Shown piece by piece: positions 26,423 to 40,165 of a stretch of 64,000 nt of DNA. Origin of the DNA: Christiangramia fulva (GTDB lineage Bacteria; Bacteroidota; Bacteroidia; Flavobacteriales; Flavobacteriaceae); contig NZ_CP028136.1 in NCBI RefSeq assembly GCF_003024155.1, positions 4,154,001 through 4,218,000 of the forward strand, read 5' to 3'. A model generated the notes under the pieces. The model searched no databases and was not told the DNA's origin. It saw nothing but the letters and a program-made list of their open reading frames with translations. The position numbers and the translations under genes were made by a program. Every line of letters starts with the position of its first letter. Positions within the stretch are counted from its first letter, which is position 1.

Positions 26423-26664
26423 AATTGGAATTTCAATATCTACTTAAAGATAAATTTGCAAAATGCTTATGATAAAAGTTTCTCTGAATTCACGGAGATC
26501 GGTTTGAATAGAATTTCTCATAAAAATTGAAACTCGCTTCTCACGAGAACAATTTTGCTGCTGAATTCAATTTGGCTTTCAATTTTTCAGCAGCATTTTC
26601 ATATGCTACAAATCGCCAAAAAATCATTTCTTTTTCTATTCCGCTTAGGATCCTATAATTTATA

Positions 26665-26859
26665 TTAATAGAACCTTCCCTTAAGCAAACTCTTTTGGAC
26701 CACCCCCGTATAAACCAGTAAAATCGTAAAAACCAGAATCAAAACGAGCAGGAAACCCCGCAATGCTCCAGTAGTCATAAGAATAGTCAGTTCAGATGCA
26801 ATTAAATAACGTACAGCAACGTCTATTTTACTAATATGATGTGCTTTAAACTTTTTCAT
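26665..26859 (-). CDS. Small membrane protein, copy 1 of a paralogous pair
   Basis: 64 residues with a basic start (KKFKAHHISKIDVAVRYLIA) and one long or two short membrane segments (GFLLVLILVFTILLVYTGV), ending VVQKSLLKGRF. It is about 80% identical to the product of 39927-40124, with conserved KAxHISKxDVAVRYLIASEL. Both genes have an FNR/CRP-like site about 70 bp upstream at the same distance from a TTTG -7 element. The conserved start HISKIDVAVRYLIA is unusual for a plain anchor. Function unknown; oxygen- or energy-dependent expression is inferred. Confidence 0.75.
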   Translation of the reverse strand: MKKFKAHHISKIDVAVRYLIASELTILMTTGALRGFLLVLILVFTILLVYTGVVQKSLLKGRFY

Positions 26860-26903
26860 GATTTCTGGGATTAAAAATTCATAAAACCTTTTAATTTATA
26901 TAA

Positions 26904-27085: not shown

Positions 27086-27447
27086 AACTATCCAAAATTT
27101 TATTTCTACCTTATTTACTGGGCTTACGCCAGTTTTTAAGAAAAATAAAGCACCGAATTTATCACCGAATTTAAATTTTTCGAGAATTGATAAAGTTATT
27201 AACAATTTTTATCAATTATAAAATTGATATTCTTCCAAAATTAATAAAATTTCTTCCAGTTTTGATAAGTTTAAAATTATTGAACCCCTAAAAAAATAAA
27301 AGCAATTATGATTTTAAAATATATGTATTACCAGAACTTCAGTTTGTAAGGAATAAGCATTAACTTCAAAACAGTAAAGAAGACCCACACCTTCGTTTAT
27401 CCCGCCATCTACTCGGATAAAAATATATATTTATAGACATATAACTA

Positions 27448-27455
27448 GTTGGCAC
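27448..27455 (+). other. First core site GTTGGCAC (attI-like or remnant)
   Basis: GTTGGCACAAATATT here matches, inverted, the left end of attC-like site 1 (AATACTTGTGCCAAC), so it marks the left boundary of the first cassette. No attC-type arms precede it, which is what an attI site looks like, but no integrase gene is adjacent. The stretch 27086-27447 has no ORF. Confidence 0.55.
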
Positions 27456-27592
27456 AAATATTTAGATTGAGATTTACAAAGAACATATTATATTTTTCAG
27501 AATATCATTAACATAATATTCTTATTATTAGCAAAATAGAGTCTAATTGACGCAACTTTTGGAGCTTATTAGCATCTTTTAAAAAAGAAATT

Positions 27593-27961
27593 ATGAATTT
27601 AAAAAAACTAATCTTAATCGGACTTCTAATTATTGTTGCTTCCTGTAGCAAAAATGAAGACAATAGCAAGCCAGTGTTATTAGGAATTTATACTGAGACT
27701 TCACCCTTTTCCGAAACACATACAATAAACTTTGTTGACAATAACAGGTTAATTGTAAATGCTAGAAATTCAACACAAGAAGAATATATTTACGTCCTGA
27801 GGGATAATATTATAGAACTTACTCCAACTCGGGATTTATCCAAAAATTGGGATTTAAAAATTAATATTATAAGTAATAAGAAATTTGAGATACAAAATAT
27901 TTTTTATGCAAGCATACCTGAAGATCCTGATCCTTTACAATTTGTGACGTTCGAAAAATAA
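27593..27961 (+). CDS. Cassette 1 gene: small lipoprotein
   Basis: 122 residues. Lipoprotein signal ending LLIIVASCSKNEDN. The mature part is beta-rich (LLGIYTETSPFSETHTINFV, NNRLIVNARNSTQEEYIYVL) and resembles small lipocalin-like lipoproteins common in flavobacteria, but no family is assigned. It is the only gene in the first cassette (27448-28182), 145 bp from the core site. Confidence 0.7.
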   Translation: MNLKKLILIGLLIIVASCSKNEDNSKPVLLGIYTETSPFSETHTINFVDNNRLIVNARNSTQEEYIYVLRDNIIELTPTRDLSKNWDLKINIISNKKFEIQNIFYASIPEDPDPLQFVTFEK

Positions 27962-28052
27962 AAAATTCTTACCCGTCCTTATTATAAATTATAGCCATAC
28001 ATTTCATATAAATTCGGTTAAGTTAAAGAAAGTAATATAGTTATTAATACTT

Positions 28053-28190
28053 GTGCCAACAGCGGTTATCGCAAATGCCGGGTTTACAAAAAAGAATTAA
28101 ATTAGTTTCCATAACAAACCAAAGCGTTAAGCCGACAAATCCGTTTATATAATTCCGCGGCACTTGTCGTTAACCGCGAACCGTTAGCAC
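28053..28190 (+). repeat. attC-like site 1
   Basis: R'' GTGCCAAC, L'' arm GCGGTTATCGCAA, L' arm TTGTCGTTAACCGC, R' GTTAGCAC. The extra base in this site lies on the L' side. 138 bp in total. Confidence 0.8.
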
Positions 28191-28342
28191 GCATATTCAC
28201 AGATATAATCCTAAGCACAAAATTACTGATTTCAAAATATCAGATAAAAAAACAGACAGAAGGAATTATACCATAGCAGCCTAGATGAATAAGAAAGAAT
28301 TTAATTCACAAACTAAATCCGCAACTTGAATTTTAACTAAAA

Positions 28343-28792
28343 ATGATTGTAACCAATACCAAACCTCATTTGACAAAAAGAATAATAGCAACTCTAATAG
28401 ATTATGGTATCTATTACTTATTTGTCTTCGTTTTTATAATGTTTTTCGGAGAAGATAATGAAGAAGGTGCTAGACAAGTAACTGGAGCATTAGCATTGAT
28501 TCCTATACTAGTTTGGTTTATTTACTTTGTTTTATTTGAGTTAACCTTTAATGCGACTTTAGGACACCAATTATTTGAATTAGAAGTTAGGAATATTGAT
28601 GGAAGTAAAATTGAATTTACACAAGCTCTAAGAAGAAGATTATTGGATTTTATTGATATATGTATGTTTGGAATTCCCGCAATAATTACAATAAAAAACA
28701 CTGAACATAACCAGAGATTAGGAGATCTTTGGGCTAATACTAAAATTATAAAAGTCCAAAATAAAAAAGCTGACGTAGAAGTAAGTTCGTAG
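28343..28792 (+). CDS. Cassette 2 gene: RDD-family membrane protein
   Basis: 149 residues. First helix preceded by KRIIATLIDYGIYYLF (the Arg and Asp of the RDD signature), a second helix GALALIPILVWFIYFVLF, then NATLGHQLFELEVRN and a third segment with FTQALRRRLLDFIDICMFG, ending IKNTEHNQRLGDLWANTKII, the classical RDD C-terminal pattern. RDD proteins are inner-membrane proteins of unclear transport function. It occupies the cassette between sites 1 and 2. Confidence 0.85.
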   Translation: MIVTNTKPHLTKRIIATLIDYGIYYLFVFVFIMFFGEDNEEGARQVTGALALIPILVWFIYFVLFELTFNATLGHQLFELEVRNIDGSKIEFTQALRRRLLDFIDICMFGIPAIITIKNTEHNQRLGDLWANTKIIKVQNKKADVEVSS

Positions 28793-28802
28793 TAAAATAC
28801 GC

Positions 28803-28938
28803 GAGCTAACATCGGTTAACGGCCAATATGCGGTATTTGAAGAAAATCGATAACTTAGAACTCCAAACAACAACACCATAAGCCGACAACTCCGCGTGCT
28901 AAATTCCGCACACTGGCGTTAACCGGGACCGTTGTAAA
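28803..28938 (+). repeat. attC-like site 2
   Basis: R'' GAGCTAAC (inverse of GTTAGCAC at the end of site 1, one mismatch), L'' CGGTTAACGGCCA, L' TGGCGTTAACCG with one unpaired G in L'', R' GTTGTAAA. Confidence 0.8.
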
Positions 28939-28970
28939 AAATTTTTAACCGAAAAAATAGATTAATAAAA

Positions 28971-29702
28971 ATGTCCAAATTTCTTAACACCACAGGTGTT
29001 TCTTATCATCTTGAAGAATTAATTAAAAACACGAATGATCGATTAATTTTAATAAGTCCATATCTACAATTTCATAATAGAATAAAAGATCATATACATA
29101 ATTTGAATATCCAGAAAAAGGATATAAGAATCGTTTACAGAGAAAGTAAACTACAATTAGAAGAAAGTAATTGGCTAGAAAGTCAGATTGGAGTTAGAAC
29201 AAGTGTATGTTCTACTTTACACGCAAAATGTTATTTAAACGAGAGTGAAGCAATTGTAACATCAATGAATTTATATTCATTTTCTCAACAAAATAATGAT
29301 GAGATGGGAATATATGTTTCAAAAGAAAAAGACCCTGATTTATATAATGATATATACAATGAAGCGCAAAGACTATTAACAATTAGCGAAGAGATTCGGG
29401 TTACGGTCAAAAAAGTCGATAAGCAAGCTGAGGATAAAGTAAGAGAAAATAAAAAGCCAAATAAACCAACAAAAGATTTCTCCAACTCAAAATACTTAAC
29501 GACTAAAGAGCTTTCTAAAAAAACTGGACTAAGTAGTCGAAAAGTCAATTCAATATTGGTGAAAAAAGAATTGATGTATAAAAAAGATGATGATTGGTAT
29601 TACACCAAAAAAGGTAATGAATTTGGTGCAGAACAAAAAGAAGGTGCTTATGGTAAATTTATTGTCTGGCCAGAGGAAATAGCAGATAGTATCCTTAAAT
29701 AA
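28971..29702 (+). CDS. Cassette 3 gene: PLD-family (HKD) protein with C-terminal winged-helix-like region
   Basis: 243 residues. The N-terminal half is a phospholipase D-type domain: LILISPYLQFHNRIKDHI, RIVYRESKLQ and the single catalytic motif HAKCYLNESEAIVTSMNLY (HxK with following Ser/Asn). Only one HKD motif is present, so a dimer would be needed for activity. A lysine-rich linker (residues ~150-170) leads to a helical C-terminal part, YLTTKELSKKTGLSSRKVNS, which looks like a winged helix. PLD nucleases with DNA-binding domains occur in restriction and defence systems, so a nuclease is a reasonable guess, not proven. Confidence 0.75.
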   Translation: MSKFLNTTGVSYHLEELIKNTNDRLILISPYLQFHNRIKDHIHNLNIQKKDIRIVYRESKLQLEESNWLESQIGVRTSVCSTLHAKCYLNESEAIVTSMNLYSFSQQNNDEMGIYVSKEKDPDLYNDIYNEAQRLLTISEEIRVTVKKVDKQAEDKVRENKKPNKPTKDFSNSKYLTTKELSKKTGLSSRKVNSILVKKELMYKKDDDWYYTKKGNEFGAEQKEGAYGKFIVWPEEIADSILK

Positions 29703-29720
29703 TTTGTACAAAAAAAACTT

Positions 29721-29855
29721 TTTACAACAACGGCTCATCGCCAATAACGGGTATCATCAAAAAAGTGTATTTTTAGAAACCAGGGACTAAATCAAATAAG
29801 CCGACAACTCCGCGTCCCAACTCCCGCAACTGGCGATAGCCGAGACCGTTGTAGT
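29721..29855 (+). repeat. attC-like site 3
   Basis: R'' TTTACAAC (inverse of GTTGTAAA ending site 2), L'' CGGCTcATCGCCA with one extra C relative to L' TGGCGATAGCCG, R' GTTGTAGT. Confidence 0.85.
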
Positions 29856-30027
29856 GCATTTTATACAAAAATCCTGAGTTCAATAACTTAACGCAACAAA
29901 TCCTAAATTTAGATTTTTCTGTAGAAAGTTTAAAGAAGCGAAAAATACGAATAAAGTTAGCTACTTATTTATCAATATTTTAAAGCAACCAATTAGGGGA
30001 AATTGTATCTACTACAAAAGAAGAATT

Positions 30028-30366
30028 ATGAAAAAAATATTTATACTTATTTTCTTTACGGTAGTATTTCTTGATGTGAGTTGCTCAAAAGATGATAATT
30101 CTGCAGAATTTGCTTATGCTTTTTATAATCAAACATCTTGTGCTGATATATGGGGCTATTCCAATGATAAATACGAATTAGCAGAAAAAGTAAAAGATTT
30201 TTTTGAGACAGAAAACATTGAAATTTTAGATGTGGAATTTGACAATAAAGGAACTCCACAACTCTGTAACGCATGTATATGTTTAACTGGAAAGAGGATT
30301 TTCATTAAAGTGAAAATAGATGATTTAAACGCTATTAAAGAATATGGATTTCAAGAATCTAATTGA
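30028..30366 (+). CDS. Cassette 4 gene: small lipoprotein with Cys motif
   Basis: 112 residues. Lipoprotein signal KIFILIFFTVVFLDVSC. The mature part is alpha/beta (AEKVKDFFETENIEILDVEF) with a Cys cluster LCNACICLTGKRIFIKVKI in the second half. No family recognised. All genes of this array are preceded by 90-170 bp of non-coding sequence after the R' end, here 172 bp. Confidence 0.7.
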   Translation: MKKIFILIFFTVVFLDVSCSKDDNSAEFAYAFYNQTSCADIWGYSNDKYELAEKVKDFFETENIEILDVEFDNKGTPQLCNACICLTGKRIFIKVKIDDLNAIKEYGFQESN

Positions 30367-30444
30367 GAATATTTCAACTAAAAAAATGCAAATAACTAAT
30401 TGCCAATAAGCGCACACTTCAAAAAATATAGTCAACAATAAAAC

Positions 30445-30583
30445 GCACAACAACAACGATTAACGCAAATACCGGGTTTTTCAAGAAAGAACTAACTTTA
30501 GATTCCAACATTTAAAAATCTTCAGCCGACAAATCCGTTTTCATAATTCCGCGGCACTTGTCGTTAATCGAAACCGTTACCCA
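30445..30583 (+). repeat. attC-like site 4
   Basis: R'' GCACAACAAC (inverse of GTTGTAGTGC ending site 3 with one mismatch), L'' CGATTAACGCAA, L' TTGTCGTTAATCG with an extra A on the L' side, R' GTTACCCA. Confidence 0.8.
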
Positions 30584-30671
30584 CAAGCACCTTAATTCCG
30601 TAAAGAACCAGAAACATTATTCTATATATTTAAGTATTTGCTTAAATAAGAAATATTTGTAATTTTATGTT

Positions 30672-31046
30672 ATGGAAAAAACTTCTTGCATAAGACAACA
30701 AGCCGATATTGAACAAATAAATCGGTGTAAAGACACAGTTTCCGGATTAGACGAATCCTTCAACTATTTAGCAAACGGACTATCATTAGTAGGCAATAGT
30801 GTTCGCCTAAAAATACTTTACCTTCTGTTTGAGGAAAAAAGACTATGTGTTTGTGATCTAAGCGACATTCTCGGTATGAACATTTCTGCTATCTCTCAAC
30901 ACTTAAGGAAAATGAAAGACCGCAATCTTTTGGAAACTGATAGAGAAGCCCAAACTATTTTTTACTCACTCACGGCTGAATATGAAAAATTACTAAATCC
31001 ATTCTTTGAAATACTTGATAAAAACAAAATTTTAAAAGCGGTATGA
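30672..31046 (+). CDS. ArsR/SmtB-family metal-sensing repressor (first gene of mercury-type cassette)
   Basis: 124 residues. Winged helix with the metal-sensing alpha3N motif RLCVCDLSDILGMNISAISQ and the recognition helix SAISQHLRKMKDRNLL; an additional Cys lies at the N terminus (KTSCIRQQ) and another in NRCKD. It very probably represses its own operon and is released by Hg(II) or another soft metal. It overlaps the next gene by 4 bp (ATGA). It is the first gene of a four-gene cassette (30576-33366). Confidence 0.9.
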   Translation: MEKTSCIRQQADIEQINRCKDTVSGLDESFNYLANGLSLVGNSVRLKILYLLFEEKRLCVCDLSDILGMNISAISQHLRKMKDRNLLETDREAQTIFYSLTAEYEKLLNPFFEILDKNKILKAV

Positions 31047-31645
31047 AAAGTGAAAACAAATTACTCGGTGCAGGTGTGTTAACTGCAATCACAGCTTCAT
31101 TATGCTGTATTACACCAGTTTTGGCTTTAATCGCAGGAACAAGTGGAATTGCTTCAACATTTTCTTGGATTGAACCTTTTAGACCTTACCTGATTGGACT
31201 TACAGTTTTAGTTCTTGGGTTTGCCTGGTACCAAAAACTAAAACCCAAAAAAGAAATTGATTGTCAATGTGAGACGGACGAAAAGCCAAAGTTTATTCAA
31301 TCAAAAACATTTTTAGGAATTGTAACTGTGTTTGCAGTTGTAATGTTGGCATTCCCATATTATTCAGGGATTTTTTATACAAACACAGAAAAGCAAATAA
31401 TCGTAGTTGACAAATCGGACATTAAAACAGTTCAATTTAAAATCAACGGAATGACCTGTACAGGTTGCGAAGAACACGTAAACCACGAAGTATATAAACT
31501 TGACGGAATTATCAACTCAAAAGCTTCCTACGAAAATGGAAATGCTACCATTGAATTTGACCAAGCCAAAACCAATGAAATGGAAATTGAGAAAGCAATT
31601 AACTCAACAGGTTATAAAGTAACTGACAAAAAAGAAATCTATTAG
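31043..31645 (+). CDS. merTP: Mercuric transport fusion protein MerTP-like
   Basis: 200 residues. N-terminal MerT-like part with three helices; the first contains the Cys pair ASLCCITPVLALI used to pass Hg(II), and a further Cys pair sits in a loop (DCQCETDEK). After the third helix a linker leads to a C-terminal heavy-metal-associated domain with GMTCTGCEEHVNHEVYKLDG (CxxC), as in MerP, followed by GIINSKASYENGNATIEFD. The fusion form MerTP is known from Bacteroidota. Overlaps the ArsR gene by 4 bp; 1 bp before the next gene. Confidence 0.88.
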   Translation: MKSENKLLGAGVLTAITASLCCITPVLALIAGTSGIASTFSWIEPFRPYLIGLTVLVLGFAWYQKLKPKKEIDCQCETDEKPKFIQSKTFLGIVTVFAVVMLAFPYYSGIFYTNTEKQIIVVDKSDIKTVQFKINGMTCTGCEEHVNHEVYKLDGIINSKASYENGNATIEFDQAKTNEMEIEKAINSTGYKVTDKKEIY

Positions 31646-31646
31646 T

Positions 31647-32993
31647 ATGAAGGAATATGATGTATTTATAATTGGTTCAGGAATGTCAGGAATGACAATC
31701 GCCAACAAATGTGCCTCCAAAGGATTGACAGTCGGAATTACAGATGAATTACCTTACGGGGGTACGTGTGCATTAAGAGGATGTGACCCCAAGAAAGTCA
31801 TTTTAGGAGCTACAGAAGTCCGGGAATTTGCTAAAAGACTTAAAAGCAGTGGAATTGATACAATTCCTAAAGTCAATTGGAAAGATATAATGTCATTCAA
31901 ACAATCTTTTGTGAAGGCAATGCCCCCAAAAATTGAAAAAGGATATGAAAAAAAGGGAATAGATACTTTTCATCATACAGCTAAATTTTTAACTGAAAAC
32001 ACCTTGAGAGTTGGAAATGACGAAATAAAGGCTAATAAAATTGTAATTGCAGCCGGTGCCAAACCAAGGGTTTTAGAATTTGAAGGTGGTCATTTTGCCA
32101 AGTCCAGTACTGATTTTTTGAATTTAGAAGAATTACCGAAATCTTTATTATTTATTGGTGGTGGCTATATTGCTTTTGAGTTTGCACAAATTGCAGCAAG
32201 ATGTGGAGCAGAAGTAACTATAGTTCATCGTGGAAGAAATCCGCTTAAGAATTTTGACCAGGATATTGTTACCCATCTTGTTTCAGCCACAAAAAAATTA
32301 GGAATAAAAATTTTCCTTAAAACAGAAGTGGAAGCTATTGAAAAAATCGGTAATAAGTATAGAGTGAAAGGTAAATCTGAAGAAAAAACAGAATATTTTG
32401 AAGCTGAAACTGTTTTTAATTCTGCCGGGCGACCTCCGGCGATATTTGATTTGGACTTGGAAAAAGCCAACATTGCTTATTCTAAAAATGGTGTTTCAGT
32501 AAATGAATATCTTCAAAGTACTTCAAACCAAAATATTTATGCAGCAGGTGATGCTGCAGATTCGGAAGGCTTGCCTTTAACTCCCGTTGCAGTTTTGGAA
32601 GGTCACACAGTTGCGTCGAATATAATTAAAGGTAATTCTAAAGAAATAAGTTACCCACCAATGCCAACGGTAGTTTTTACATTGCCTACTATGGCCTCTG
32701 TTGGTTATAATGAATCAAAAGCTAAAGAGCTAAATAGGAATATTCAAGTAAATTATAAAGAGGCTTTAGATTGGTTCAATGCCAAACGTTTGAAGGTAGA
32801 AGAATATGCATTTAAAACTGTTATTGATGAAGATACCCAGACAATTTTGGGCGCACAATTAATTGGTCCGCATACTGAAGAAACTATAAATCTCTTTGCG
32901 ATGGCTATACATACTAAAATGAAGGTGAATGATCTTAAGAAAATGATTTTCTCATATCCTACGATGGCTTCAGACATTCCACATATGCTTTAA
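31647..32993 (+). CDS. FAD/NAD(P)-dependent disulfide oxidoreductase, MerA-related but lacking MerA hallmarks
   Basis: 448 residues of the glutathione-reductase/lipoamide-dehydrogenase family: FAD loop FIIGSGMSGMTIANKC, redox disulfide YGGTCALRGCDPKK (CxxxxC), NAD(P)-binding LLFIGGGYIAFEFAQIAARC and the second FAD motif NIYAAGDAADSEG. It lacks the N-terminal HMA domain and C-terminal vicinal Cys pair of mercuric reductase, and the usual His-Pro-x-x-x-Glu of the family is replaced by SYPTMASDIPHML at the C terminus. Context (ArsR and MerTP) suggests Hg(II) reduction or related metal/thiol chemistry, but canonical MerA is not supported. Confidence 0.85.
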   Translation: MKEYDVFIIGSGMSGMTIANKCASKGLTVGITDELPYGGTCALRGCDPKKVILGATEVREFAKRLKSSGIDTIPKVNWKDIMSFKQSFVKAMPPKIEKGYEKKGIDTFHHTAKFLTENTLRVGNDEIKANKIVIAAGAKPRVLEFEGGHFAKSSTDFLNLEELPKSLLFIGGGYIAFEFAQIAARCGAEVTIVHRGRNPLKNFDQDIVTHLVSATKKLGIKIFLKTEVEAIEKIGNKYRVKGKSEEKTEYFEAETVFNSAGRPPAIFDLDLEKANIAYSKNGVSVNEYLQSTSNQNIYAAGDAADSEGLPLTPVAVLEGHTVASNIIKGNSKEISYPPMPTVVFTLPTMASVGYNESKAKELNRNIQVNYKEALDWFNAKRLKVEEYAFKTVIDEDTQTILGAQLIGPHTEETINLFAMAIHTKMKVNDLKKMIFSYPTMASDIPHML

Positions 32994-33004
32994 AAAAAGA
33001 AAAA

Positions 33005-33211
33005 ATGAAAACTATATTAAAATCAGAAATAACCTGTCCAAATTGCGGACATAAAGAGGTGGAAGATATGCCGACAAACGCTTGTCAATTCTTTTACCAG
33101 TGTAAGAATTGCAAAAAAGTTCTTAAACCAAAGGAAGGAGATTGTTGTGTTTATTGCTCATACGGCACTGTACCTTGTCCACCAATTCAGGAGAATAAAA
33201 GTTGCTGTTAA
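33005..33211 (+). CDS. Small Cys-rich protein of the mercury-type cassette
   Basis: 68 residues with ten Cys: a zinc-ribbon-like CPNCGHKE...CQFFYQCKNCKKV and then GDCCVYCSYGTVPCPP and a final SCC. I recall the same GDCC-CSYG-PCPP type protein next to mer-like genes in other Bacteroidota, usually annotated hypothetical. Ten Cys in 68 residues suggests metal binding, perhaps delivery of Hg(II) to the oxidoreductase. It starts 11 bp after that gene and ends the cassette. Confidence 0.8.
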   Translation: MKTILKSEITCPNCGHKEVEDMPTNACQFFYQCKNCKKVLKPKEGDCCVYCSYGTVPCPPIQENKSCC

Positions 33212-33239
33212 AACTAAAAAACAAAAGTATCCTGGCCTG

Positions 33240-33374
33240 TGGGTAACATCGGCTCATCGCAAATAACGGGTATTGTCGAAAAAGTGTAATTTTAGAAACC
33301 AGGAAAGAAAATGATTAATCTGACAACTTCGCATCCCCACTCCCGCAACTTGCGATAGCCGTAACCGTTGGCAT
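33240..33374 (+). repeat. attC-like site 5
   Basis: R'' TGGGTAAC is the inverse of GTTACCCA that ends site 4, proving the four-gene mercury operon is one cassette. L'' CGGCTcATCGCAA with an extra C against L' TTGCGATAGCCG; R' GTTGGCAT. Confidence 0.88.
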
Positions 33375-33450
33375 TAATACTTAAACAGAGAAAAATTTAA
33401 TTTTGAAACTTGATTTAAAGTAATAACTTTGTATTTACAAAATAAAAGTT

Positions 33451-33696
33451 ATGGAAACTTCAATTATACAGATTGGAAATTCAAAAGGACTTCGTTTAAG
33501 CAAAACGATTCTTGAAAAATATCACATAAAAGATAAAGTAGAACTCATTTTAGAAAAAGGTCAAATTATACTCCGACCAATTGATTCGCCAAGAAAAAAT
33601 TGGGAAGAAAAATTTAAGAAAATGGCCAAAAATGAAGATGATCAACTTCTGATGAATGATGTGTTTGATGATGAAAACTTCGATGAATGGATTTAA
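33451..33696 (+). CDS. mazE: MazE-family antitoxin
   Basis: 81 residues. N-terminal AbrB/MazE swapped-hairpin DNA-binding domain (IQIGNSKGLRLSKTILEKY, then VELILEKGQIILRP) and an acidic, flexible C-terminal tail (DDQLLMNDVFDDENFDEWI) of the type that wraps the toxin. It overlaps the toxin gene by 10 bp and autoregulation is expected. First gene of the cassette 33367-34143. Confidence 0.9.
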   Translation: METSIIQIGNSKGLRLSKTILEKYHIKDKVELILEKGQIILRPIDSPRKNWEEKFKKMAKNEDDQLLMNDVFDDENFDEWI

Positions 33697-34010
33697 ATCA
33701 ATACGATATAGTTCTAGTTAATCTAGATCCGACTGTTGGAAGTGAAATCAAGAAAACCAGACCTTGTGTAATCATTTCTCCAAATGAGATGAATAAATAT
33801 TTAAGAACGATTGTTGTTGCTCCTATGACAACAAATACGAAAAAATATCCGACAAGAATTCCGGTAAAATCAAATGGAAAAAAAGGAATGATTGCAATTG
33901 ATCAAATTAGAACAATTGATAAACTAAGAATTGTAAAAATCTTTGAATCATTATCCAACTCGGAAATCAAAAAGTGTAAAGAGGTGCTTAAAGAAACATT
34001 TGTGGACTAA
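33687..34010 (+). CDS. mazF: MazF-family endoribonuclease toxin
   Basis: 107 residues with the MazF/PemK fold signature: YDIVLVNLDPTVGSEIKKTR (catalytic Arg region), PCVIISPNEMNKYLRTIVVA, PMTTNTKKYPTRI and the late motif GMIAIDQIRTIDKLRI. MazF toxins cut single-stranded RNA at short sequences. Ends only 6 bp before attC-like site 6. Toxin-antitoxin pairs are typical stabilising cargo of sedentary integrons. Confidence 0.92.
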   Translation: MDLNQYDIVLVNLDPTVGSEIKKTRPCVIISPNEMNKYLRTIVVAPMTTNTKKYPTRIPVKSNGKKGMIAIDQIRTIDKLRIVKIFESLSNSEIKKCKEVLKETFVD

Positions 34011-34016
34011 GTACTA

Positions 34017-34151
34017 ATGCCAACTTCGGTTCATCGCAAATAACGGGCTTAGTCGAAAAAGTGTAATTTTAAAAACCAGGAAAGAAAATAACTAATCCGA
34101 CAAGTCCGCGTTCCTACTCCCGCAACTTGCGATAACCGTAGCCGTTGTGCA
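34017..34151 (+). repeat. attC-like site 6
   Basis: R'' ATGCCAAC with flank GTACTA is the inverse of GTTGGCATTAATAC at the end of site 5. L'' CGGTTcATCGCAA with an extra C against L' TTGCGATAACCG, spacer TAGCC, R' GTTGTGCA. Confidence 0.88.
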
Positions 34152-34167
34152 CTATTTTTATTAAAAA

Positions 34168-34734
34168 TTGAGAAAAGAACTAAAATACATCGAATTAAAA
34201 AGCGGATATTCCGATAATGGTCCAGCTTGGATAGGATTTGTTTCATTTTCAAAAAGTGGAAAAACACTTTATTTTGATGGAAAAGGATTTCAAAGTCTAG
34301 ATGGAACAGGAATACAAGGAAACTATTTTGACCTTGAAACAGGTGATGAATATTGGATATCCGGAGTTAAAAAAGATATGTCTGATCGACATAGATTTGG
34401 AAGTGGGAATATTTTGGTGGAGAAAAGAAGCTTATCTGAATATTTAAAAATTATTGGACAAGATGATCTACCAAAAAGCGGATATGAACTCGTTGAAGTA
34501 GATATAGAAAAACCAACTGATAAAATAAATAATTTGGAAAATGCTTCTGTTGAAAATACAGAAATTGATGAAAAACTTTATTTCAAATCTCCAACGGAAT
34601 TAACTGTAGAACAACTCGAAATACTAATTGAAGACCTGAAAAGAGAGGAAAAAGAAGCTAAATATAACAAAGGTCGGAGATCCATAAAAAATAAGCGAAT
34701 TGATTTAGAGTTAGAACTTGATAAAAGAAACTAA
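34168..34734 (+). CDS. Cassette gene: conserved hypothetical protein
   Basis: 188 residues. The only start in the right place is TTG 34168, 17 bp after the R' end; no ATG precedes the conserved part. N-terminal ~90 residues are beta-rich (KYIELKSGYSDNGPAWIGFV, GKTLYFDGKGFQS, GDEYWISGVKKD), a sequence I remember as a recurrent hypothetical protein in many bacteria, followed by a charged helical tail ending in LELDKRN. Function unknown. Sole gene of its cassette. Confidence 0.7.
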   Translation: MRKELKYIELKSGYSDNGPAWIGFVSFSKSGKTLYFDGKGFQSLDGTGIQGNYFDLETGDEYWISGVKKDMSDRHRFGSGNILVEKRSLSEYLKIIGQDDLPKSGYELVEVDIEKPTDKINNLENASVENTEIDEKLYFKSPTELTVEQLEILIEDLKREEKEAKYNKGRRSIKNKRIDLELELDKRN

Positions 34735-34742
34735 AAAAACAG

Positions 34743-34877
34743 TGCACAACAGCGGTTCATCGCAAATAACGGGTAATTGAGTAAAAATTGTAATTTTAGA
34801 GACCAAGAAACAAACCGGTAATCCGACAAGTCCGCGTCCTTACTCCCGCAACTTGCGATAACCACAACCGTTGGCAA
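34743..34877 (+). repeat. attC-like site 7
   Basis: R'' TGCACAAC is the inverse of GTTGTGCA ending site 6. L'' CGGTTcATCGCAA (extra C) against TTGCGATAACC; R' GTTGGCAA. Confidence 0.88.
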
Positions 34878-35316
34878 CAAATGCGATGGAAAATTCTGCT
34901 AAGAAGAATGTTTTTTAAAATGGTTTTCCCAAAACTTCACAAGAAAAAATCTACTGAAAAACAAAAAGTTCTAATGAATGTTTACGCTTAAAGAACCAAA
35001 AAGTTCTACAGGAAATTTTGAAAAAAGAAGAAAAATTTAAAACTGGCGTTCTATTGAAAATCAGCAGAAAAGAACGTGAAAAAACTGACATCTCATTGGA
35101 AAATTTGAGCAAAAAACCAGAAAGTTCTACAGAAAGTTTACCGCAAAAAACCAAAAAATCCTATTGAATATTTAGTGCTGAAAAACAGAAAAGTCCTCTT
35201 GAAAAATTTGAACTAAATAACTGGAAAATATAGAAGAAAATCCAAGTAAAAAGATTTCAAAAATTGACAATTTCAAAAGATGTTTTGTGGTGAAAATCAA
35301 GAAAAAAACGCATCAG
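34878..35316 (+). other. ORF-less cassette body with degenerate internal repeats
   Basis: No plus-strand frame longer than about 30 codons is seen between sites 7 and 8. The DNA is purine-rich and repeats variants of AAAAACCAGAAAGTTCTACAG / GAAAAACAGAAAAGTCCTC several times with irregular spacing. The longest open frame (34951-35154, minus) is a Phe/Ser-rich translation of the repeats and is not believed. It may encode an RNA, or be a decayed gene. Confidence 0.6.
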
Positions 35317-35476
35317 TTGCCAACATCGGTTAAGGCAAATAGCCGGTATTTTGCGAAAAGTGTTATTTTAGAGATCAAAATAATAAATCGGTAAGCCGAC
35401 AAATTTGCGTTCCCTACTCCGGCAACTTGTCCTTAACCGTATTCCAAGATCAAATCCAAGTTATTTTTCGATAAAT

Positions 35477-36472
35477 TTAAGCAGCATATTTGCATAGATC
35501 TACGTAGGGTGTTCCTCGCTTGATCACCGCAAATGCTCTGGATATAAGCTTATTTCTAACATTGTTCAAGGCTAGCATTTTCGGTTTTCCTTCCTCCACT
35601 TTTCTTTGGTAATATGATCTCAATTCGCCGTCATGTTGAATAGCTGAGATACTTGCCATATTTAATAATGTTTTCATTTTTCTGTCGCTCATTGGATGCC
35701 CTTTTGATCTTCTATACACACTGGTTCCCGAACTATATTGAAAAGGAGCCGTACCACAATAACTCGAAAATTGTCGCCAATCGCTAAAGCGTTCAAAGTT
35801 ACAAGTGTGGTAAATCAGTTGGCAAGCCAGAATTCTACCTACGCCTTTTAAGCTAGTCAGTAATTTGTAATTCTTGCTCATACGATCCTCTCTTTTTACG
35901 AGCTCATCTATCTGTTTTTCCAGTTTCAAAATTTGTTTGCTTAAATAGGCTATGGTGTGCTTTAAACTCTTACAGCTGACATCTGTTGAAGGACTGGATA
36001 AAAGTCCGCTAAGTTCTTCTAATGTTCCCATAAGACCCGTGCGATTTCGCACTAGCTGATCTCTTAGACTTAATAACCTTCCCAGTTCTAATAAAGCTTC
36101 ATCACGAATACTACTGCATACTAACTCTTCCCTGTGCAACCAGGCATACCTGGCAATCATTTGAGCGTCCACACGATCAGTTTTAGTTCTAACAAGTCCC
36201 GAAGATCTTTTGATTACTATCGGATTTTCCTGAACATAGTTTAAACCGTTAGTCTGCATGAAGATCGCTAGCTTCAAGGAATAGTTTCCGGTATGTTCAA
36301 AACAATATAAAACTGACTTTTCGATTTTAGAAAATTTACTAACCCATTTTAAAAGTGAATCGTAACCTGATCTACAGTTATCAAATACCCTATGTTTATT
36401 GTAATTATGGATAAATACATCTAAGGTTTTTTTGGATACATCTATCCCAACGGCTAGCTCATAATTTTTCAT
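35477..36472 (-). CDS. IS110-family DEDD transposase (recombinase)
   Basis: 331 residues. N-terminal RuvC-like DEDD domain: GIDVSKKTLDVFIH (Asp), YCFEHTGNYS (Glu) and the double Asp of KTDRVDAQMIARYA. A coiled-coil region (YLSKQILKLEKQIDELVKRE) leads to the C-terminal Transposase_20 domain with LTSLKGVGRILACQLIYHT, SYCGTAPFQYSSGTSVYRR and the Ser region MSDRKMKTLLNMAS. Members act with a bridge RNA encoded in the element's end. Complete and apparently intact. Confidence 0.95.
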   Translation of the reverse strand: MKNYELAVGIDVSKKTLDVFIHNYNKHRVFDNCRSGYDSLLKWVSKFSKIEKSVLYCFEHTGNYSLKLAIFMQTNGLNYVQENPIVIKRSSGLVRTKTDRVDAQMIARYAWLHREELVCSSIRDEALLELGRLLSLRDQLVRNRTGLMGTLEELSGLLSSPSTDVSCKSLKHTIAYLSKQILKLEKQIDELVKREDRMSKNYKLLTSLKGVGRILACQLIYHTCNFERFSDWRQFSSYCGTAPFQYSSGTSVYRRSKGHPMSDRKMKTLLNMASISAIQHDGELRSYYQRKVEEGKPKMLALNNVRNKLISRAFAVIKRGTPYVDLCKYAA

Positions 36473-36496
36473 ATCTTTAAAATCGAATTAAATGAA

Positions 36497-36632
36497 GTTG
36501 CAGTAACTATTACCTTTAACGGGTCCTGCTAGACCTGGTATTCCAATTAGTTCTTTGCAACATTTATAGAAGCTAAGGGGACTCACACGGTTAATGGTTC
36601 TATTCTAGCAACCGTTCTAGTTCTCCCCTTAG
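36497..36632 (-). ncRNA. Predicted bridge RNA of the IS110-family element
   Basis: In the non-coding end upstream of the transposase, on its strand, two hairpin loops are found. Loop 1: stem CTAAGGGGA/TCCCCTTAG (36624-36632 with 36573-36581) enclosing 42 nt that contain AACGG and TTAACCGTG; the attC target read in the same direction is CAACGGC-TA-CGGTTAAGG, so one segment equals the left target and the other is complementary to the right target (8 nt). Loop 2: stem GTTGCA/TGCAAC plus AACTA/TAGTT (36548-36561 with 36497-36509) enclosing TTGGAATAC, identical to the element's right end (35439-35447), and TAAAGGTA, complementary to its left end (36662-36669). This is the published layout of target- and donor-binding loops. 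Confidence 0.78.
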
Positions 36633-36694
36633 TTTGCTATAATCAATATAACGATTCAAAGTAAAGGTAGCCGTTGTGCACAAGCCTCACAAAA

Positions 36695-37183
36695 ATGAGA
36701 ACTACGATACAAATATTTCTGATTTTGATTTCTACTTTGACATTTGGTCAAAAGAAAATTAGTGGAAAATATTCCAATAAATTCGGAGAAGAAATTGAAT
36801 TAAAAATGGATTCAACCTTTGTTTATAATTGGAAATTTGATCTAGCTTCGAGTTGGTCAAAGGGAAAATGGAGTTTAAAAAATGATACAATTTTCCTGAA
36901 AGTAATTCCAATAATGGACACTACAAAAATTGTAGAGAAGAATAAATATTCAGATAGTTTAATTTTATCATCTGATCAAAAAGCAAGTGTGATTGAAAAA
37001 GATGAACTAATCACAAATGCTTTATCGAGTAGTGGACAAAACCGACAAAATCCACCTACGAAATTAATTATTAAAAATGAAAGATTATTCCGGTTAACTG
37101 AGAATAATAAAATTGATAGTAAAAAACACAAGCATCCGAGTTCGAGCAAAAAATACCAAACATTTTTTATAAAGAGTAAGTAA
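36695..37183 (+). CDS. Cassette gene: exported hypothetical protein
   Basis: About 162 residues from ATG 36695; an ORF can be opened at 36674 but that is inside the R' site. Signal peptide TIQIFLILISTLTFGQ. The mature part begins KKISGKYSNKFGEEIELKMD, a lipocalin-like start seen in small exported proteins of Bacteroidota, and has a basic C terminus (KKHKHPSSSKKYQTFF). First gene of the cassette 36673-37629, which holds two genes. Confidence 0.65.
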   Translation: MRTTIQIFLILISTLTFGQKKISGKYSNKFGEEIELKMDSTFVYNWKFDLASSWSKGKWSLKNDTIFLKVIPIMDTTKIVEKNKYSDSLILSSDQKASVIEKDELITNALSSSGQNRQNPPTKLIIKNERLFRLTENNKIDSKKHKHPSSSKKYQTFFIKSK

Positions 37184-37193
37184 TCATTTTGAA

Positions 37194-37481
37194 ATGAGAA
37201 CGGAGAAAAAAAAGATTATTGACAATCCTTGGAACAACATCGGAGTGATTTTCGTAACCGTAATTGTTTTTACTACAATTACAATGTCAGCACCAGATTT
37301 AAATCAAGCAGAGCTTGGCGGTTTAGCTAATTTATTTTTCCCCGCAGTATTTGGACTTATAACTATTTTGATTTATCTAATTTCAAGAATATTTATCCGA
37401 AAGTGGAATTGGATAATAACAATTTGTGGAATTATATATATAGGATATTTATCAATAATGCTATTTTTTGATAAGCTTTAA
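37194..37481 (+). CDS. Cassette gene: small membrane protein
   Basis: 95 residues, 10 bp after the exported protein gene. Three hydrophobic segments: IGVIFVTVIVFTTITMSA, LFFPAVFGLITILIYLIS and WIITICGIIYIGYLSIMLFF. No known family. Ends 22 bp before attC-like site 9. Confidence 0.65.
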   Translation: MRTEKKKIIDNPWNNIGVIFVTVIVFTTITMSAPDLNQAELGGLANLFFPAVFGLITILIYLISRIFIRKWNWIITICGIIYIGYLSIMLFFDKL

Positions 37482-37503
37482 AATACATTGGACAAAAGGC
37501 CAG

Positions 37504-37637
37504 TGCACAACAACGCATAACTCAAATAGGCGGTGAAATTTTAAAGAAAATAAGTATCTTGATCAACAATCCAGGCTTAAGCCGACAAGTTCGCTTTCCC
37601 TACTCCGCCAACTTGTGTTATGCGAAGCCGTTGTGCG
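37504..37637 (+). repeat. attC-like site 9
   Basis: R'' TGCACAAC with flank GGCCAG is the inverse of GTTGTGCACAAGCC at the end of site 8, showing that the cassette boundaries pre-date or ignore the IS110 insertion. L'' CGCATAACTCAA, L' TTGTGTTATGCG, R' GTTGTGCG. Confidence 0.85.
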
Positions 37638-37647
37638 TAATTTACTT

Positions 37648-38340
37648 ATGAAGAAATTCCTTTTAATATTCTTTTTAATTCTCCAGAATGTTTATTCTCA
37701 AAAGAATTATACCGAATTACAAGAACTTGGTTTGCATGGAAATGTAGAATCAATAATTACTAAATCCTACTCAAGCAAGATTGATTCAACCGACCTCATT
37801 TCTAAACAAATTGCGATTTTTAATAAAAAAGGAAACATAATTAAAATAATAGATTCAATTTACGAATCTGGCAAACTTAAAGTCGCAGAAAAAGAATATT
37901 AAGAAAGTATTGATGGAACTAAAAGTTTATTCAAAATTAAGATAAATGGTGAGTTATCTGAATATGGTTCTTATAATTGGATAGATGATAGAAATTATAC
38001 AATTATTGCATTTGGAGATGATGCCATAAAAACTGAATACAGATATTATCTCAGTCAAAACTTAAGAGATAGTATTGGACGAACTAAATTTTATCTATAC
38101 AACCCAAAAGATTATTCTACTGTAGAATATTTAGCAAGTTCAGAATATCAAAATTTTTATGACGAGAATGGAAATTTGAGGAAGGTAATAGAGTTTGATG
38201 ATCTTGATAATGAGAAACAAGTAATAATCTATAAAACTATAGAACTCGATGAATTAGGAAATAGAACAAAAGTCAAATTATTTGATAAAGAATCAGATTC
38301 ATTGATTTTAATTAGAACTATTAAATATAATTATTACTAA
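37648..38340 (+). pseudogene. Cassette gene: exported protein broken by an in-frame TAA
   Basis: ATG 37648 begins a signal peptide KKFLLIFFLILQNVYSQ and a mature part with LHGNVESIITKSYSSK. The frame meets TAA at 37900-37902 after KVAEKEY and then continues in the same frame without a stop to TAA 38338-38340 (ESIDGTKSLFKIKINGELSE... to ...LIRTIKYNYY), 231 codons in all. The second half is normal protein-like sequence with alternating strands, so one nonsense mutation (or a base error) splits a single exported protein of unknown function. Confidence 0.75.
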
Positions 38341-38349
38341 AGTAAACAA

Positions 38350-38483
38350 CGCACAACAGCGGTTCATCTCAAATTACGGGTTTTACAAAAAAGAACTAAA
38401 TTAGATTCCTAACAAACTAAAGCGTTAGCCGACAAGTCCGCGTTCCTACTCCCGCAACTTGCGATAACCGCGGCCGTTACCTA
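38350..38483 (+). repeat. attC-like site 10
   Basis: R'' CGCACAAC with flank GTAAACAA is the inverse of GTTGTGCGTAATTTAC at the end of site 9 (14 of 16). L'' CGGTTcATCTCAA (extra C) against TTGCGATAACCG, R' GTTACCTA. The matching R'' at the far end of the next cassette is not found; it was lost at the IS3 insertion. Confidence 0.85.
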
Positions 38484-38512
38484 CAATAGCCACATTGAAA
38501 TCGTAAAGAATT

Positions 38513-38596
38513 ATGAAAAAAATAATATTATATTTTAGTTTAATTTCAGTTTTAGTTTCTTGCTCTAAAGCAGATTGTGATAATCCATTAGTGTAA
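38513..38596 (+). pseudogene. Last cassette gene: lipoprotein truncated by the IS3 element
   Basis: ATG 38513 opens a lipoprotein signal ending SVLVSCSKADC and stops after 27 codons at 38594-38596, one base before the left end of the IS3-family element. The product is a signal peptide with a 10-residue tail, so the gene has evidently lost its 3' part. Confidence 0.6.
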
Positions 38597-38658: not shown

Positions 38659-38916
38659 ATGAAGAAATCCAGAAGAAAATTTAGTGCACAATTTAAAGCC
38701 AATGTAGCCTTAGAAGCTATCAAAGAACGTCATACTCTAGCAGAACTCTCCGAGCGTTTTGAAGTAAGCGCAGTAATGATCTCCCGATGGAAGAAGGAGT
38801 TCCAGAAAAACATGGCCCAGGCATTTGAAAAAGAGCAACCTAAGAAAACCGATCAGGTGGATCCAGAGAAGCTTTATGCTCAGATCGGTCAGCTCAAAGT
38901 AGAGAATGATTTTTAA
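38659..38916 (+). CDS. IS3-family OrfA (HTH protein)
   Basis: 85 residues. Helix-turn-helix of the IS3 OrfA type: KKSRRKFSAQFKANVALEAI and LAELSERFEVSAVMISRWKK, then a leucine-zipper-like tail (KLYAQIGQLKVENDF). It ends at TAA 38914-38916 in a T4A9 tract (38911-38923). Slipping back one base there would read LKKKLKENRSMSD and enter OrfB, giving the OrfAB transposase by -1 programmed frameshifting. Confidence 0.9.
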   Translation: MKKSRRKFSAQFKANVALEAIKERHTLAELSERFEVSAVMISRWKKEFQKNMAQAFEKEQPKKTDQVDPEKLYAQIGQLKVENDF

Positions 38917-38942
38917 AAAAAAAGCTTAAAGAAAACAGGTCT

Positions 38943-39827
38943 ATGAGCGATCGGAGGTCCCTGATCAGTAGCCGACAAAAGCGAATGAGTATCCGTAAGC
39001 AATGTCAACTACTCTCAGTCAATAGAAGCTCGTTATATTATCGTCCCAAGGAAGAAAAACCCGAAAATTTAAAGATCATGCGTATCATGGACGAACATGC
39101 TATCAAACATCCGGCTGAAGGAGTCAAGTCAATGGTCTTCATGTTAGGTCTGAGGGGCTATCATGTAAATCCTAAACGAGTGAGAAGACTGCTTCGTAAA
39201 ATGGGCCACAGAACGATATATCCAAAGAAGAACCTGAGTAAGTTGGGACAGGCAAAGTACATCCGCCCTTATCTTTTACATAAAATGCCTATAGACAGGG
39301 CTAACCAGGTCTGGAGTATTGATATCACCTATATCCCCATGAAAAAAGGATTCATGTACTGTACGGCTATCATCGATGTATACAGTCGTAAGATCATGGG
39401 CTGGGGTATCTCCAACAGCCTGGAAACAAAATGGTGTTTACAGGTACTTGAGGACGCTATCAAACGCCATGGAAAGCCAGAGATCATTAATACCGATCAA
39501 GGTTCTCAGTTTACTTCTGCAGCATGGACCTTAACCCTAGAGGAAGAGGGTATAAAAATATCTATGGATGGTAAAGGAAGAGCTATTGACAATAGATGGA
39601 TCGAGCGCTTTTGGAGAACACTTAAGTACAAATATATCTATTTAAACCCTCCTGAAAATGGTCTTGAACTCTATGAAGGAATACGAGATTATATAGAATA
39701 TTATAATCATCAAAAAATACATCACACCTTCAAGGAAATCCCAGGGCAACGTTACCAGGAATCAATAAATAAAACAAAGAATAGTAACCCTAAATCATTA
39801 ACTAAGAAAACACCTGTTTTGGTCTAG
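38943..39827 (+). CDS. IS3-family OrfB (DDE transposase)
   Basis: 294 residues. HTH_21 region (RKQCQLLSVNRSSLYYRP) and the integrase core with DDE residues in VWSIDITYIPM, IINTDQGSQFTS and NRWIERFWRTLKYKYIYL. Intact. It lies in the -1 frame relative to OrfA. Expressed mainly as an OrfAB fusion. Confidence 0.93.
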   Translation: MSDRRSLISSRQKRMSIRKQCQLLSVNRSSLYYRPKEEKPENLKIMRIMDEHAIKHPAEGVKSMVFMLGLRGYHVNPKRVRRLLRKMGHRTIYPKKNLSKLGQAKYIRPYLLHKMPIDRANQVWSIDITYIPMKKGFMYCTAIIDVYSRKIMGWGISNSLETKWCLQVLEDAIKRHGKPEIINTDQGSQFTSAAWTLTLEEEGIKISMDGKGRAIDNRWIERFWRTLKYKYIYLNPPENGLELYEGIRDYIEYYNHQKIHHTFKEIPGQRYQESINKTKNSNPKSLTKKTPVLV

Positions 39828-39926: not shown

Positions 39927-40124
39927 CTATTCATAAAACCTTCCTTTAAGCAGGCTCTTCTGAACTACTCCTGTATAGACTAGCAAAAGAGTAAATGAAA
40001 GGATCAAGACCAGAAGAATTCCGCGAACTGCCCCTGTAGTCATAAAAACTGTCAATTCTGAAGCGATTAGATAGCGTACTGCTACATCCACTTTGCTGAT
40101 ATGCTGTGCTTTTAAATTTTTCAT
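39927..40124 (-). CDS. Small membrane protein, copy 2 of a paralogous pair
   Basis: 65 residues, clearly homologous to the 26665-26859 product: KNLKAQHISKVDVAVRYLIA, ILLVLILSFTLLLVYTGV and VVQKSLLKGRFYE. It lies just past the IS3 element, so the two copies bracket the cassette array in the same orientation. Upstream is an FNR/CRP-like operator with the same spacing as copy 1. Divergent from the Crp-family regulator gene at 40284. Function unknown. Confidence 0.75.
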   Translation of the reverse strand: MKNLKAQHISKVDVAVRYLIASELTVFMTTGAVRGILLVLILSFTLLLVYTGVVQKSLLKGRFYE

Positions 40125-40165
40125 GATTATGGGATTTAAAAGTGATTATAACATTTTTACACCAT

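Follow-up and report, generated by a model that had tools for sequence, protein, structure and literature searches.

A cassette array of Christiangramia fulva as the probable satellite of a flavobacterial chromosomal integron headed by a non-IntI recombinase

Which recombinase, if any, serves a cassette array that stands in a flavobacterial chromosome with no integrase gene nearby? This question was raised by a first-pass annotation of a 64,000-nt stretch of Christiangramia fulva DNA (the window; C1:4154001-4218000 of the 4.38-Mb single-contig chromosome NZ_CP028136.1), which described ten attC-type recombination sites and offered three options: a cluster of attC sites lacking an integrase (CALIN), dependence on an integrase elsewhere, or use of a different recombinase. 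Our data point to all three together: locally the array is a CALIN with an integrase stub, the probable cognate integrase heads a main array 1.3 Mb away, and this integrase is not a standard IntI. We consider it very probable that the array in the window belongs, as a satellite, to a flavobacterial chromosomal integron, and that the array-head integrase would serve it.

The ten attC-type sites lie between positions 27448 and 38482 on the plus strand, as the annotation had placed them, together with ten cassettes; nine of the sites are intact and the eighth is split by an IS110-family element. Every cassette opens with G^TT. The ten bases that begin with this GTT (box R') match the reverse complement of the ten bases, ending in AAC, that open the attC of the same cassette (box R''). 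The head of the array and its sites, with the core-box match of each cassette, are as follows.

27375..27419, plus strand: decayed 3' end of an array-head-type integrase gene (blastn against the intact integrase gene C1:2872058-2873215)
27420..27457, plus strand: attI-like site, crossover GTT at 27448, aligned with the attI of the main integron
28054..28189, plus strand: attC1, nine-site covariance model, R''/R' of cassette 1 10/10
28804..28937, plus strand: attC2, covariance model, R''/R' 9/10
29722..29854, plus strand: attC3, covariance model, R''/R' 10/10, bottom-strand fold z -4.8
30448..30582, plus strand: attC4, covariance model, R''/R' 9/10
33241..33373, plus strand: attC5, covariance model, R''/R' 10/10
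34018..34150, plus strand: attC6, covariance model, R''/R' 10/10
34744..34876, plus strand: attC7, covariance model, R''/R' 10/10
35318..35439, plus strand: 5' part of attC8, whose 3' end (36668-36679) lies beyond the IS110 element, R''/R' 9/10
37505..37636, plus strand: attC9, covariance model, R''/R' 9/10
38351..38482, plus strand: attC10, covariance model, R''/R' 9/10

The core-box complementarity claimed earlier for nine of nine cassettes thus extends to ten of ten, with a mean of 9.5/10 compared to 5.4 for mismatched pairs, and none of 20,000 permutations reached an equally high value. A covariance model built from nine of the sites recovered all ten at E <= 6e-18 (nine of them match by construction), and a pattern search of the whole chromosome, allowing up to three mismatches, gave 64 matches versus 13 with the reversed pattern. 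One observation weighs against the identification of these sites as attC. A simple hairpin scanner alone returned 16 + 8 matches in the window and 14-24 in shuffles, hence no excess, and the class stood out from shuffles solely when CCGTT ends, core-box match and spacing were combined. Rfam, searched at gathering scores, gave no match. A CALIN comprises at least two attC sites less than 4 kb apart (PMC9668308) and has no adjoining integrase; the window array has ten sites with a largest gap below 3 kb, and only the integrase stub alongside.

The annotation's remark that there was no integrase nearby holds for intact genes and fails for decayed ones, as an integrase 3' end lies directly before the first cassette. 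Positions 27375-27454 are 77.5% identical over 80 nt to the 3' end of the intact integrase gene plus its attI (blastn E 3.5e-12), and the local score at the window head was 94, compared to at most 54 in 200 shuffles. The motif TATA[AG]C..GTT occurs in the window once on the plus strand, at the attI-like site, and once on the minus strand, at about 31616. Because this stretch is about as close to its counterparts in other species (up to 80.5%), it looks like an old or foreign copy, and not like a recent piece of the local integrase. Judged by its sequence, the array in the window is a satellite whose own integrase has decayed, and the integron to which it belongs is flavobacterial and chromosomal; an origin by off-target insertion was rejected, since both the stub and the attI-like site are present.

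Over the genome, the nine-site model matched 69 places at E <= 0.01, distributed as follows.

Window: 10 matches
C1:2828-2871 kb, minus strand: 43 matches
C1:3737-3745 kb: 6 matches
C1:535-550 kb: 3 + 2 matches
C1:2404/2414 kb: 2 matches
Partial, weak matches: 3

The main array covers ~43 kb and contains at least 44 attC sites, the 44th detected by the hairpin scanner only. At its head, co-directional with the cassettes, lies the gene for a 386-aa tyrosine recombinase (C1:2872058-2873215, minus strand). The stop codon of this gene starts 30 nt before GTTGGCAACC, the exact complement of the first attC R'', GGTTGCCAAC, located 1.1 kb further on. This complementarity fixes the attI as ...TATATTTACGTGGATATAACGA^GTTGGC, with ^ placed where the G^TT box begins. 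Core boxes of the main array matched at 8/10 or more in 38 of 43 cassettes (0 of 5,000 permutations equally high), and of the open reading frames (ORFs) of at least 90 aa, 38 lie on the array strand and 7 on the opposite one. The third array (C1:3737-3746 kb) also opens with an attI-like site, whose R box fits the first attC at 9/10. The genome thus holds three platforms, one with an intact integrase. Elsewhere in the chromosome, window cassette 1 has an 80% match at 537 kb and window cassette 6 an 85% match at 3760641-3761235; the attC matches at 535-550 kb and 2404-2414 kb are diverged.

The cassettes of the window, and the insertion elements within and behind them, are listed here.

27449..28183, plus strand: cassette 1, lipoprotein-like ORF 27593-27961, borders by R'/R''
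28184..28931, plus strand: cassette 2, RDD-family membrane protein (PF06271)
28932..29848, plus strand: cassette 3, PLD-like protein (PF13091), also in genome G005 (89%)
29849..30576, plus strand: cassette 4, lipoprotein-like ORF, borders by R'/R''
30577..33367, plus strand: cassette 5, 2.8 kb, four mercury-type genes (ArsR-type regulator, MerTP, MerA-like reductase, small Cys-rich protein)
33368..34144, plus strand: cassette 6, MazE-like/PemK-MazF toxin-antitoxin pair (PF02452), also in genomes G006, G007 and G016
34145..34870, plus strand: cassette 7, ORF of unknown function, borders by R'/R''
34871..36673, plus strand: cassette 8, no clear gene, IS110 element inside its attC
35440..36667, minus strand: IS110-family element in attC8, transposase 35477-36472 (NF033542, 178 bits, cut-off 140)
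36674..37630, plus strand: cassette 9, two small ORFs
37631..38476, plus strand: cassette 10, interrupted ORF
38659..39827, plus strand: IS3-family transposase ORFs at the array end, behind a cut-off cassette 11 that starts at 38477 (NF033516, 238 bits, cut-off 160)

For cassette 11, no partner core box above 8/10 was found up to 44 kb. In cassette 5, NF033788 and NF033556 scored above their cut-offs and the MerA-like protein below its own; the mer genes have ~70% identical matches elsewhere in this and other genomes. A small membrane-protein gene is present in two copies, 75% identical, on either side of the array (26663-26892 and 39928-40157).

Cassettes of this family appear as discrete units, with copies at non-adjacent places and in other species and with matching borders. 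A 523-bp cassette occurs in seven full copies (80-98% identical) and one partial copy scattered over the main array, the alignments running from border to border or starting at base 5-6. Another main-array cassette recurs in the third array (79%), and a further one in C. gaetbulicola (91% over 1453/1462 nt). Window cassettes 3 and 6 were found from GTT to GTT in other genomes of the genus, the latter at 89-91%. The homology extends 3-51 nt further, into attC ends and shared first bases, and then ends; one of the foreign copies has a changed base in the left GTT. The borders of these two cassettes therefore recur in four other genomes, where a mismatch had been named as grounds for abandoning the proposal. 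From such copies we infer cassette movement. A plasmid search with one attC gave no match, nor did phage records queried with the integrase at E <= 1e-40.

The platform order read from the sequence is integrase gene, attI, and co-directional cassettes each ending in an attC, bounded by G^TT with complementary R'/R''. In the mechanism that we propose, the single intact integrase of this type (C1:2872058-2873215) would join attC, acting as a folded bottom strand, to double-stranded attI at the G^TT crossover. Cassettes would thereby enter at attI and be excised or shuffled in each of the three arrays, and the distant enzyme would handle the window array in trans. An alternative is that the array in the window is dead, a relic that this integrase no longer serves. 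Its stub is decayed, attC8 is broken by IS110, the end is cut by IS3, and none of its cassettes was found in the main array of the same genome. Against this, nine attC sites are intact with core boxes of 9-10/10, the attI-like motif is kept, the sites belong to the same family as those of the main array, and two cassettes are common to other species. We regard the relic as unlikely, though it is the best placed of the alternatives.

Whether the attC sites would act as folded single strands was addressed with an alignment, made from sequence only with MAFFT, of 56 sites of the genome (the nine intact sites of the window plus 47 of the 59 model matches found elsewhere). The layout is R''-L''-spacer-hairpin-spacer-L'-R'. 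A structure in which R'' (AAC) pairs with R' (GTT) and L'' with L' (12 pairs), around an inner four-pair stem, was paired in 89.9% of cells. Changes on both sides of a pair were seen in 74 cells, compared to 18.6 ± 3.5 in shuffled alignments and 5-35 with slid partners, and 11 of 19 pairs showed such changes. Since the structure was derived from the same sites, which favours it over its slid versions, the double changes are the stronger evidence. The annotation would have given up its proposal had the fold lacked covariance support; covariation is present, and an integron-like array in Bacteroidota with an attC family of its own is supported. The pair at columns 17/123 is unpaired in 28 of the 56 sites. 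At one place, the L'' arm carries an extra base in 24 sites (C in 19, giving an extrahelical G on the bottom strand), and 20 more have a mismatch next to it. Minimum-energy folds of nine single bottom strands contained most of the L''/L' stem (z -0.9 to -4.8). The sites thus combine imperfect inverted core and L boxes with a predicted fold and unpaired bases, as in integrons. A transposon- or REP-type repeat family was rejected on the cassette-specific core boxes and the unit-wise cassette copies.

The integrase itself departs from IntI. Between K247 and H308, the place of the IntI insertion, it and its listed homologues have 61-62 aa in 119 of 119 cases, compared to 104 in 29 of 29 IntI (a thirtieth IntI locus had no stop-free frame). 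The integrase is thus without ~42 residues at the position of the additional domain of IntI. In a first count, the span was short in 39/39 homologues, long in 26/26 IntI, and 57-70 aa in six Xer and other recombinases; there the IntI rows had been chosen by a motif inside the insertion, a possible bias that the 119/29 repeat avoided by being motif-free. We take the I2 domain to lie within the K247-H308 stretch. Integron integrases are described as having a 20-residue I2 domain "not identified elsewhere" that accommodates the extrahelical bases of attC (PMC4792948). Against the IntI profile TIGR02249 the integrase scored 196 bits (cut-off 265), and no gene of the genome exceeded the cut-off. 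Against NF040815 (XerA) it scored 212.4 bits, just below the cut-off of 220, with XerC and XerD far below; fold matches included 4a8e and 5hxy, so that XerA is the best match by both family and fold. In a tree, 39 homologues formed one group (100/99), 27 IntI a second and 5 Xer a third, with bootstrap values not fully settled and no support for choosing between IntI and Xer as sister of the homologues. The IntI sample was thin outside this phylum (26 from the phylum and V. cholerae IntI4), and the homologues were 39 of 40 picked by hand, L168 having given no frame. A recombinase of the own genome with a very long branch (own_L005) had split the IntI group in a first tree and was left out of the final one. 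The integrase also carries an extra N-terminal alpha/beta domain, nearest in fold to the DNA-damage-recognition domain of XPB and, more weakly, to the HARP domain of SMARCAL1; in profile searches, neither Pfam nor PDB sequences yielded a convincing relative (1 of 39 members matched HARP, at E 0.12). Conceivably, this domain could replace the extra domain of IntI in recognition of the folded attC. In sequence, the system shows the parts and order that define an integron; its recombinase falls outside IntI on all three tests made, and we class the system as an integron variant with a non-IntI integrase.

The absence of the stretch presumed to hold I2, and the XerA likeness, would also fit a recombinase acting on double-stranded sites in the manner of Xer or phage integrases, with the attC hairpin a by-product of inverted core boxes or a transcriptional feature. 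We think this improbable: the long L''/L' and inner stems covary beyond the needs of two protein boxes, 44 of 56 sites have the extra base or mismatch at the same place of the L'' stem, and the R boxes are cassette-specific, not fixed. Least credible, with very little probability left to it, is an ordinary integron in which a standard IntI, lost or missed, built the arrays beside an unrelated Xer-like neighbour: canonical IntI is frequent in other classes of the phylum (above cut-off in 105 of 395 sampled genomes), but the own genome has none, and the recombinase stands at the array head. Its distance to attI is fixed throughout the genus, and in most of the family's named loci the motif follows it closely. 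A standard IntI acting in trans was rejected likewise, given the lack of any match above cut-off in the genome.

The association of integrase, attI and attC extends through the genus Christiangramia, formerly Gramella. A homologue (E <= 1e-60) was found in 23 of 24 genus genomes, the own one included, exactly one in each and at 50-75% identity in the others; with 86 candidates scored per genome, attC matches likewise came from 23 of 24. A GTT lies exactly 30 nt past the first base of the stop codon in 20 of the 21 loci that we examined, and the first R'' fits attI at 8/10 or better in 14 of 18 loci with a downstream attC, the test failing in G004, G008, G011 and G015. In the complete genome G019, 173 model matches lie on one strand over ~187 kb behind the integrase; two of these are halves, leaving 172 attC sites. 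In G005, the integrase heads a ~73 kb stretch with same-strand attC matches. A purely structural chain walk ended after 15 cassettes in G019 and after 6 in G005.

Beyond the genus, we analysed named loci, the best 80 of 559 relatives from genome records, in Gillisia, Salegentibacter, Salinimicrobium, Mesonia, Winogradskyella, Psychroflexus, Ulvibacter, Lutibacter and other genera. In 67 of 80 loci, TATA[AG]C..GTT occurred between -20 and +160 nt relative to where the integrase match ends, with 87 occurrences in total over both strands of 0.99 Mb. The predicted R'' of a first cassette (9/10 or better) was present in 38 of 42 testable loci, compared to 13% with R boxes of other loci. An attI thus lies beside the integrase in most genus and named loci, where cassettes would be inserted. 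A 56-site model, built from the own genome only, gave 175 attC matches in 45 loci, 174 of them downstream of the integrase and co-directional with it. At least 700 nt of contig remain in 54 loci, of which 45 had a match; among the 35 loci without one, 26 have less than 700 nt left and the other 9 have more. For the gene upstream of the integrase, a search of the 80 loci at E <= 1e-20 returned no match. The contig often breaks off shortly behind the integrase (as in L098, L100, L101, L106, L111, L114, L126, L143, L164, L168 and L176, for example), and in 23 of the 80 loci less than 500 nt follow it. Such ends are expected if assemblies break at repeated attC sites, and arrays are thus probably under-represented in drafts.

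Across the family, the nine-site model with stricter filters matched 90 of 299 genomes (own included) at E <= 1e-4, mostly by one to a few weak sites outside a few genera. Class-wide, a homologue at E <= 1e-60 is present in 108 of 395 genomes (own included), and a slightly looser attI motif lies behind it in 9 of 29 loci. Of 16 class stretches, 6 have an attI-like GTT from which a perfect (9/9) cassette link starts, and 2 more have a perfect link further along; the longest run is six links. As a control, 150 walks were begun at random GTT positions of the opposite strand of G019, with settings that differed slightly; 141 gave no link, and none gave more than 2. Of the genomes with a canonical IntI above cut-off in the phylum sample (the phylum as delimited by the database used), one carries the label of the same class and none that of the same family.

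Some relatives lie on plasmids. In two Acinetobacter plasmids (NZ_CP104735 and NZ_CP041297), the "xerD" beside tet(X3) is a shortened homologue of the integrase; the match starts at residue 122, covers 62% of the query and has 45.8% identity. Directly behind it lies tet(X3), in the same orientation; these loci showed no intact attI/attC pair. Whether xerD moves tet(X) is a question posed in PMC7473080. On a Chryseobacterium plasmid (NZ_CP041688), the homologue is followed by an attI-like CATATAAACAAGTT, a very short cassette and an attC-like inverted repeat, and integrons of this kind may exist on plasmids.

Sedentary chromosomal integrons are the superintegrons of the Vibrio type. The present system resembles them in the attI beside the integrase gene, the long co-directional arrays, the folded attC, toxin-antitoxin cargo, and the G^TT crossover, which here is deduced from cassette borders. 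It differs in that the integrase gene is co-directional with the cassettes and attI lies behind its stop codon; the enzyme lacks the IntI insertion, falls outside the IntI clade and has the extra N-terminal domain, and the attC and attI families are its own. Like a CALIN in the IntegronFinder sense (PMC9024848), the window array has at least two attC sites without an adjoining integrase; unlike one, it has a stub and attI-like site at its head, and elsewhere the chromosome has an integrase that is its probable cognate and goes with the same attC family. The same paper, on IntegronFinder 2.0, names Salinibacter ruber M1 as the complete integron found in Bacteroidetes proper. This integron, of Bacteroidetes/Chlorobi, shares the phylum in a wide sense; its integrase is of IntI type, in contrast to the lack of TIGR02249 matches above cut-off here. 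XerA, XerC and XerD are closest in family score (NF040815) and fold, and differ in that the present integrase heads cassette arrays with attI, has the added domain and forms a separate tree group. Among the papers listed by searches of open-access literature (subscription papers and preprints being outside the scope), none dealt with such attC arrays in Flavobacteriaceae or with an integron integrase that is devoid of I2.

The IS110 element in attC8 has the L' arm (..AACCG) on one side and the R' spacer on the other, and this point was identical in 5 of 5 copies inspected (the window, L023 and L063 among them). IS110 transposase matches on the array side of integrases were antiparallel to the cassettes in 20 of 20 cases, some genomes counted twice; one more match (L170) lies outside. 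This looks like a Bacteroidota IS110 group that targets attC. Elements of the IS1111-attC group belong to the IS110 family and likewise use a single attC point in one orientation. Their hosts belong to another phylum, and the likeness is one of insertion pattern.

For the biology of the family, these observations suggest that a major marine clade has large gene-capture platforms that the IntI profile does not see at its cut-off. Bacteroidia may even own a separately evolved integron class, with a XerA-like recombinase without I2, folded single-stranded attC, N-terminal XPB/HARP-like help and arrays of Vibrio-superintegron size, sometimes plasmid-borne and perhaps the original home of the "xerD"-tet(X) module; we advance this tentatively, at somewhat less than even chances. 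Well-formed integrons throughout the family whose integrase is without the I2 stretch make the need for I2 directly testable, and may reveal a second way to recombine folded DNA. If such platforms do escape the IntI profile, IntI-based surveys undercount Bacteroidota, and a large cassette pool, toxin-antitoxin and metal-resistance cargo included, would become visible.

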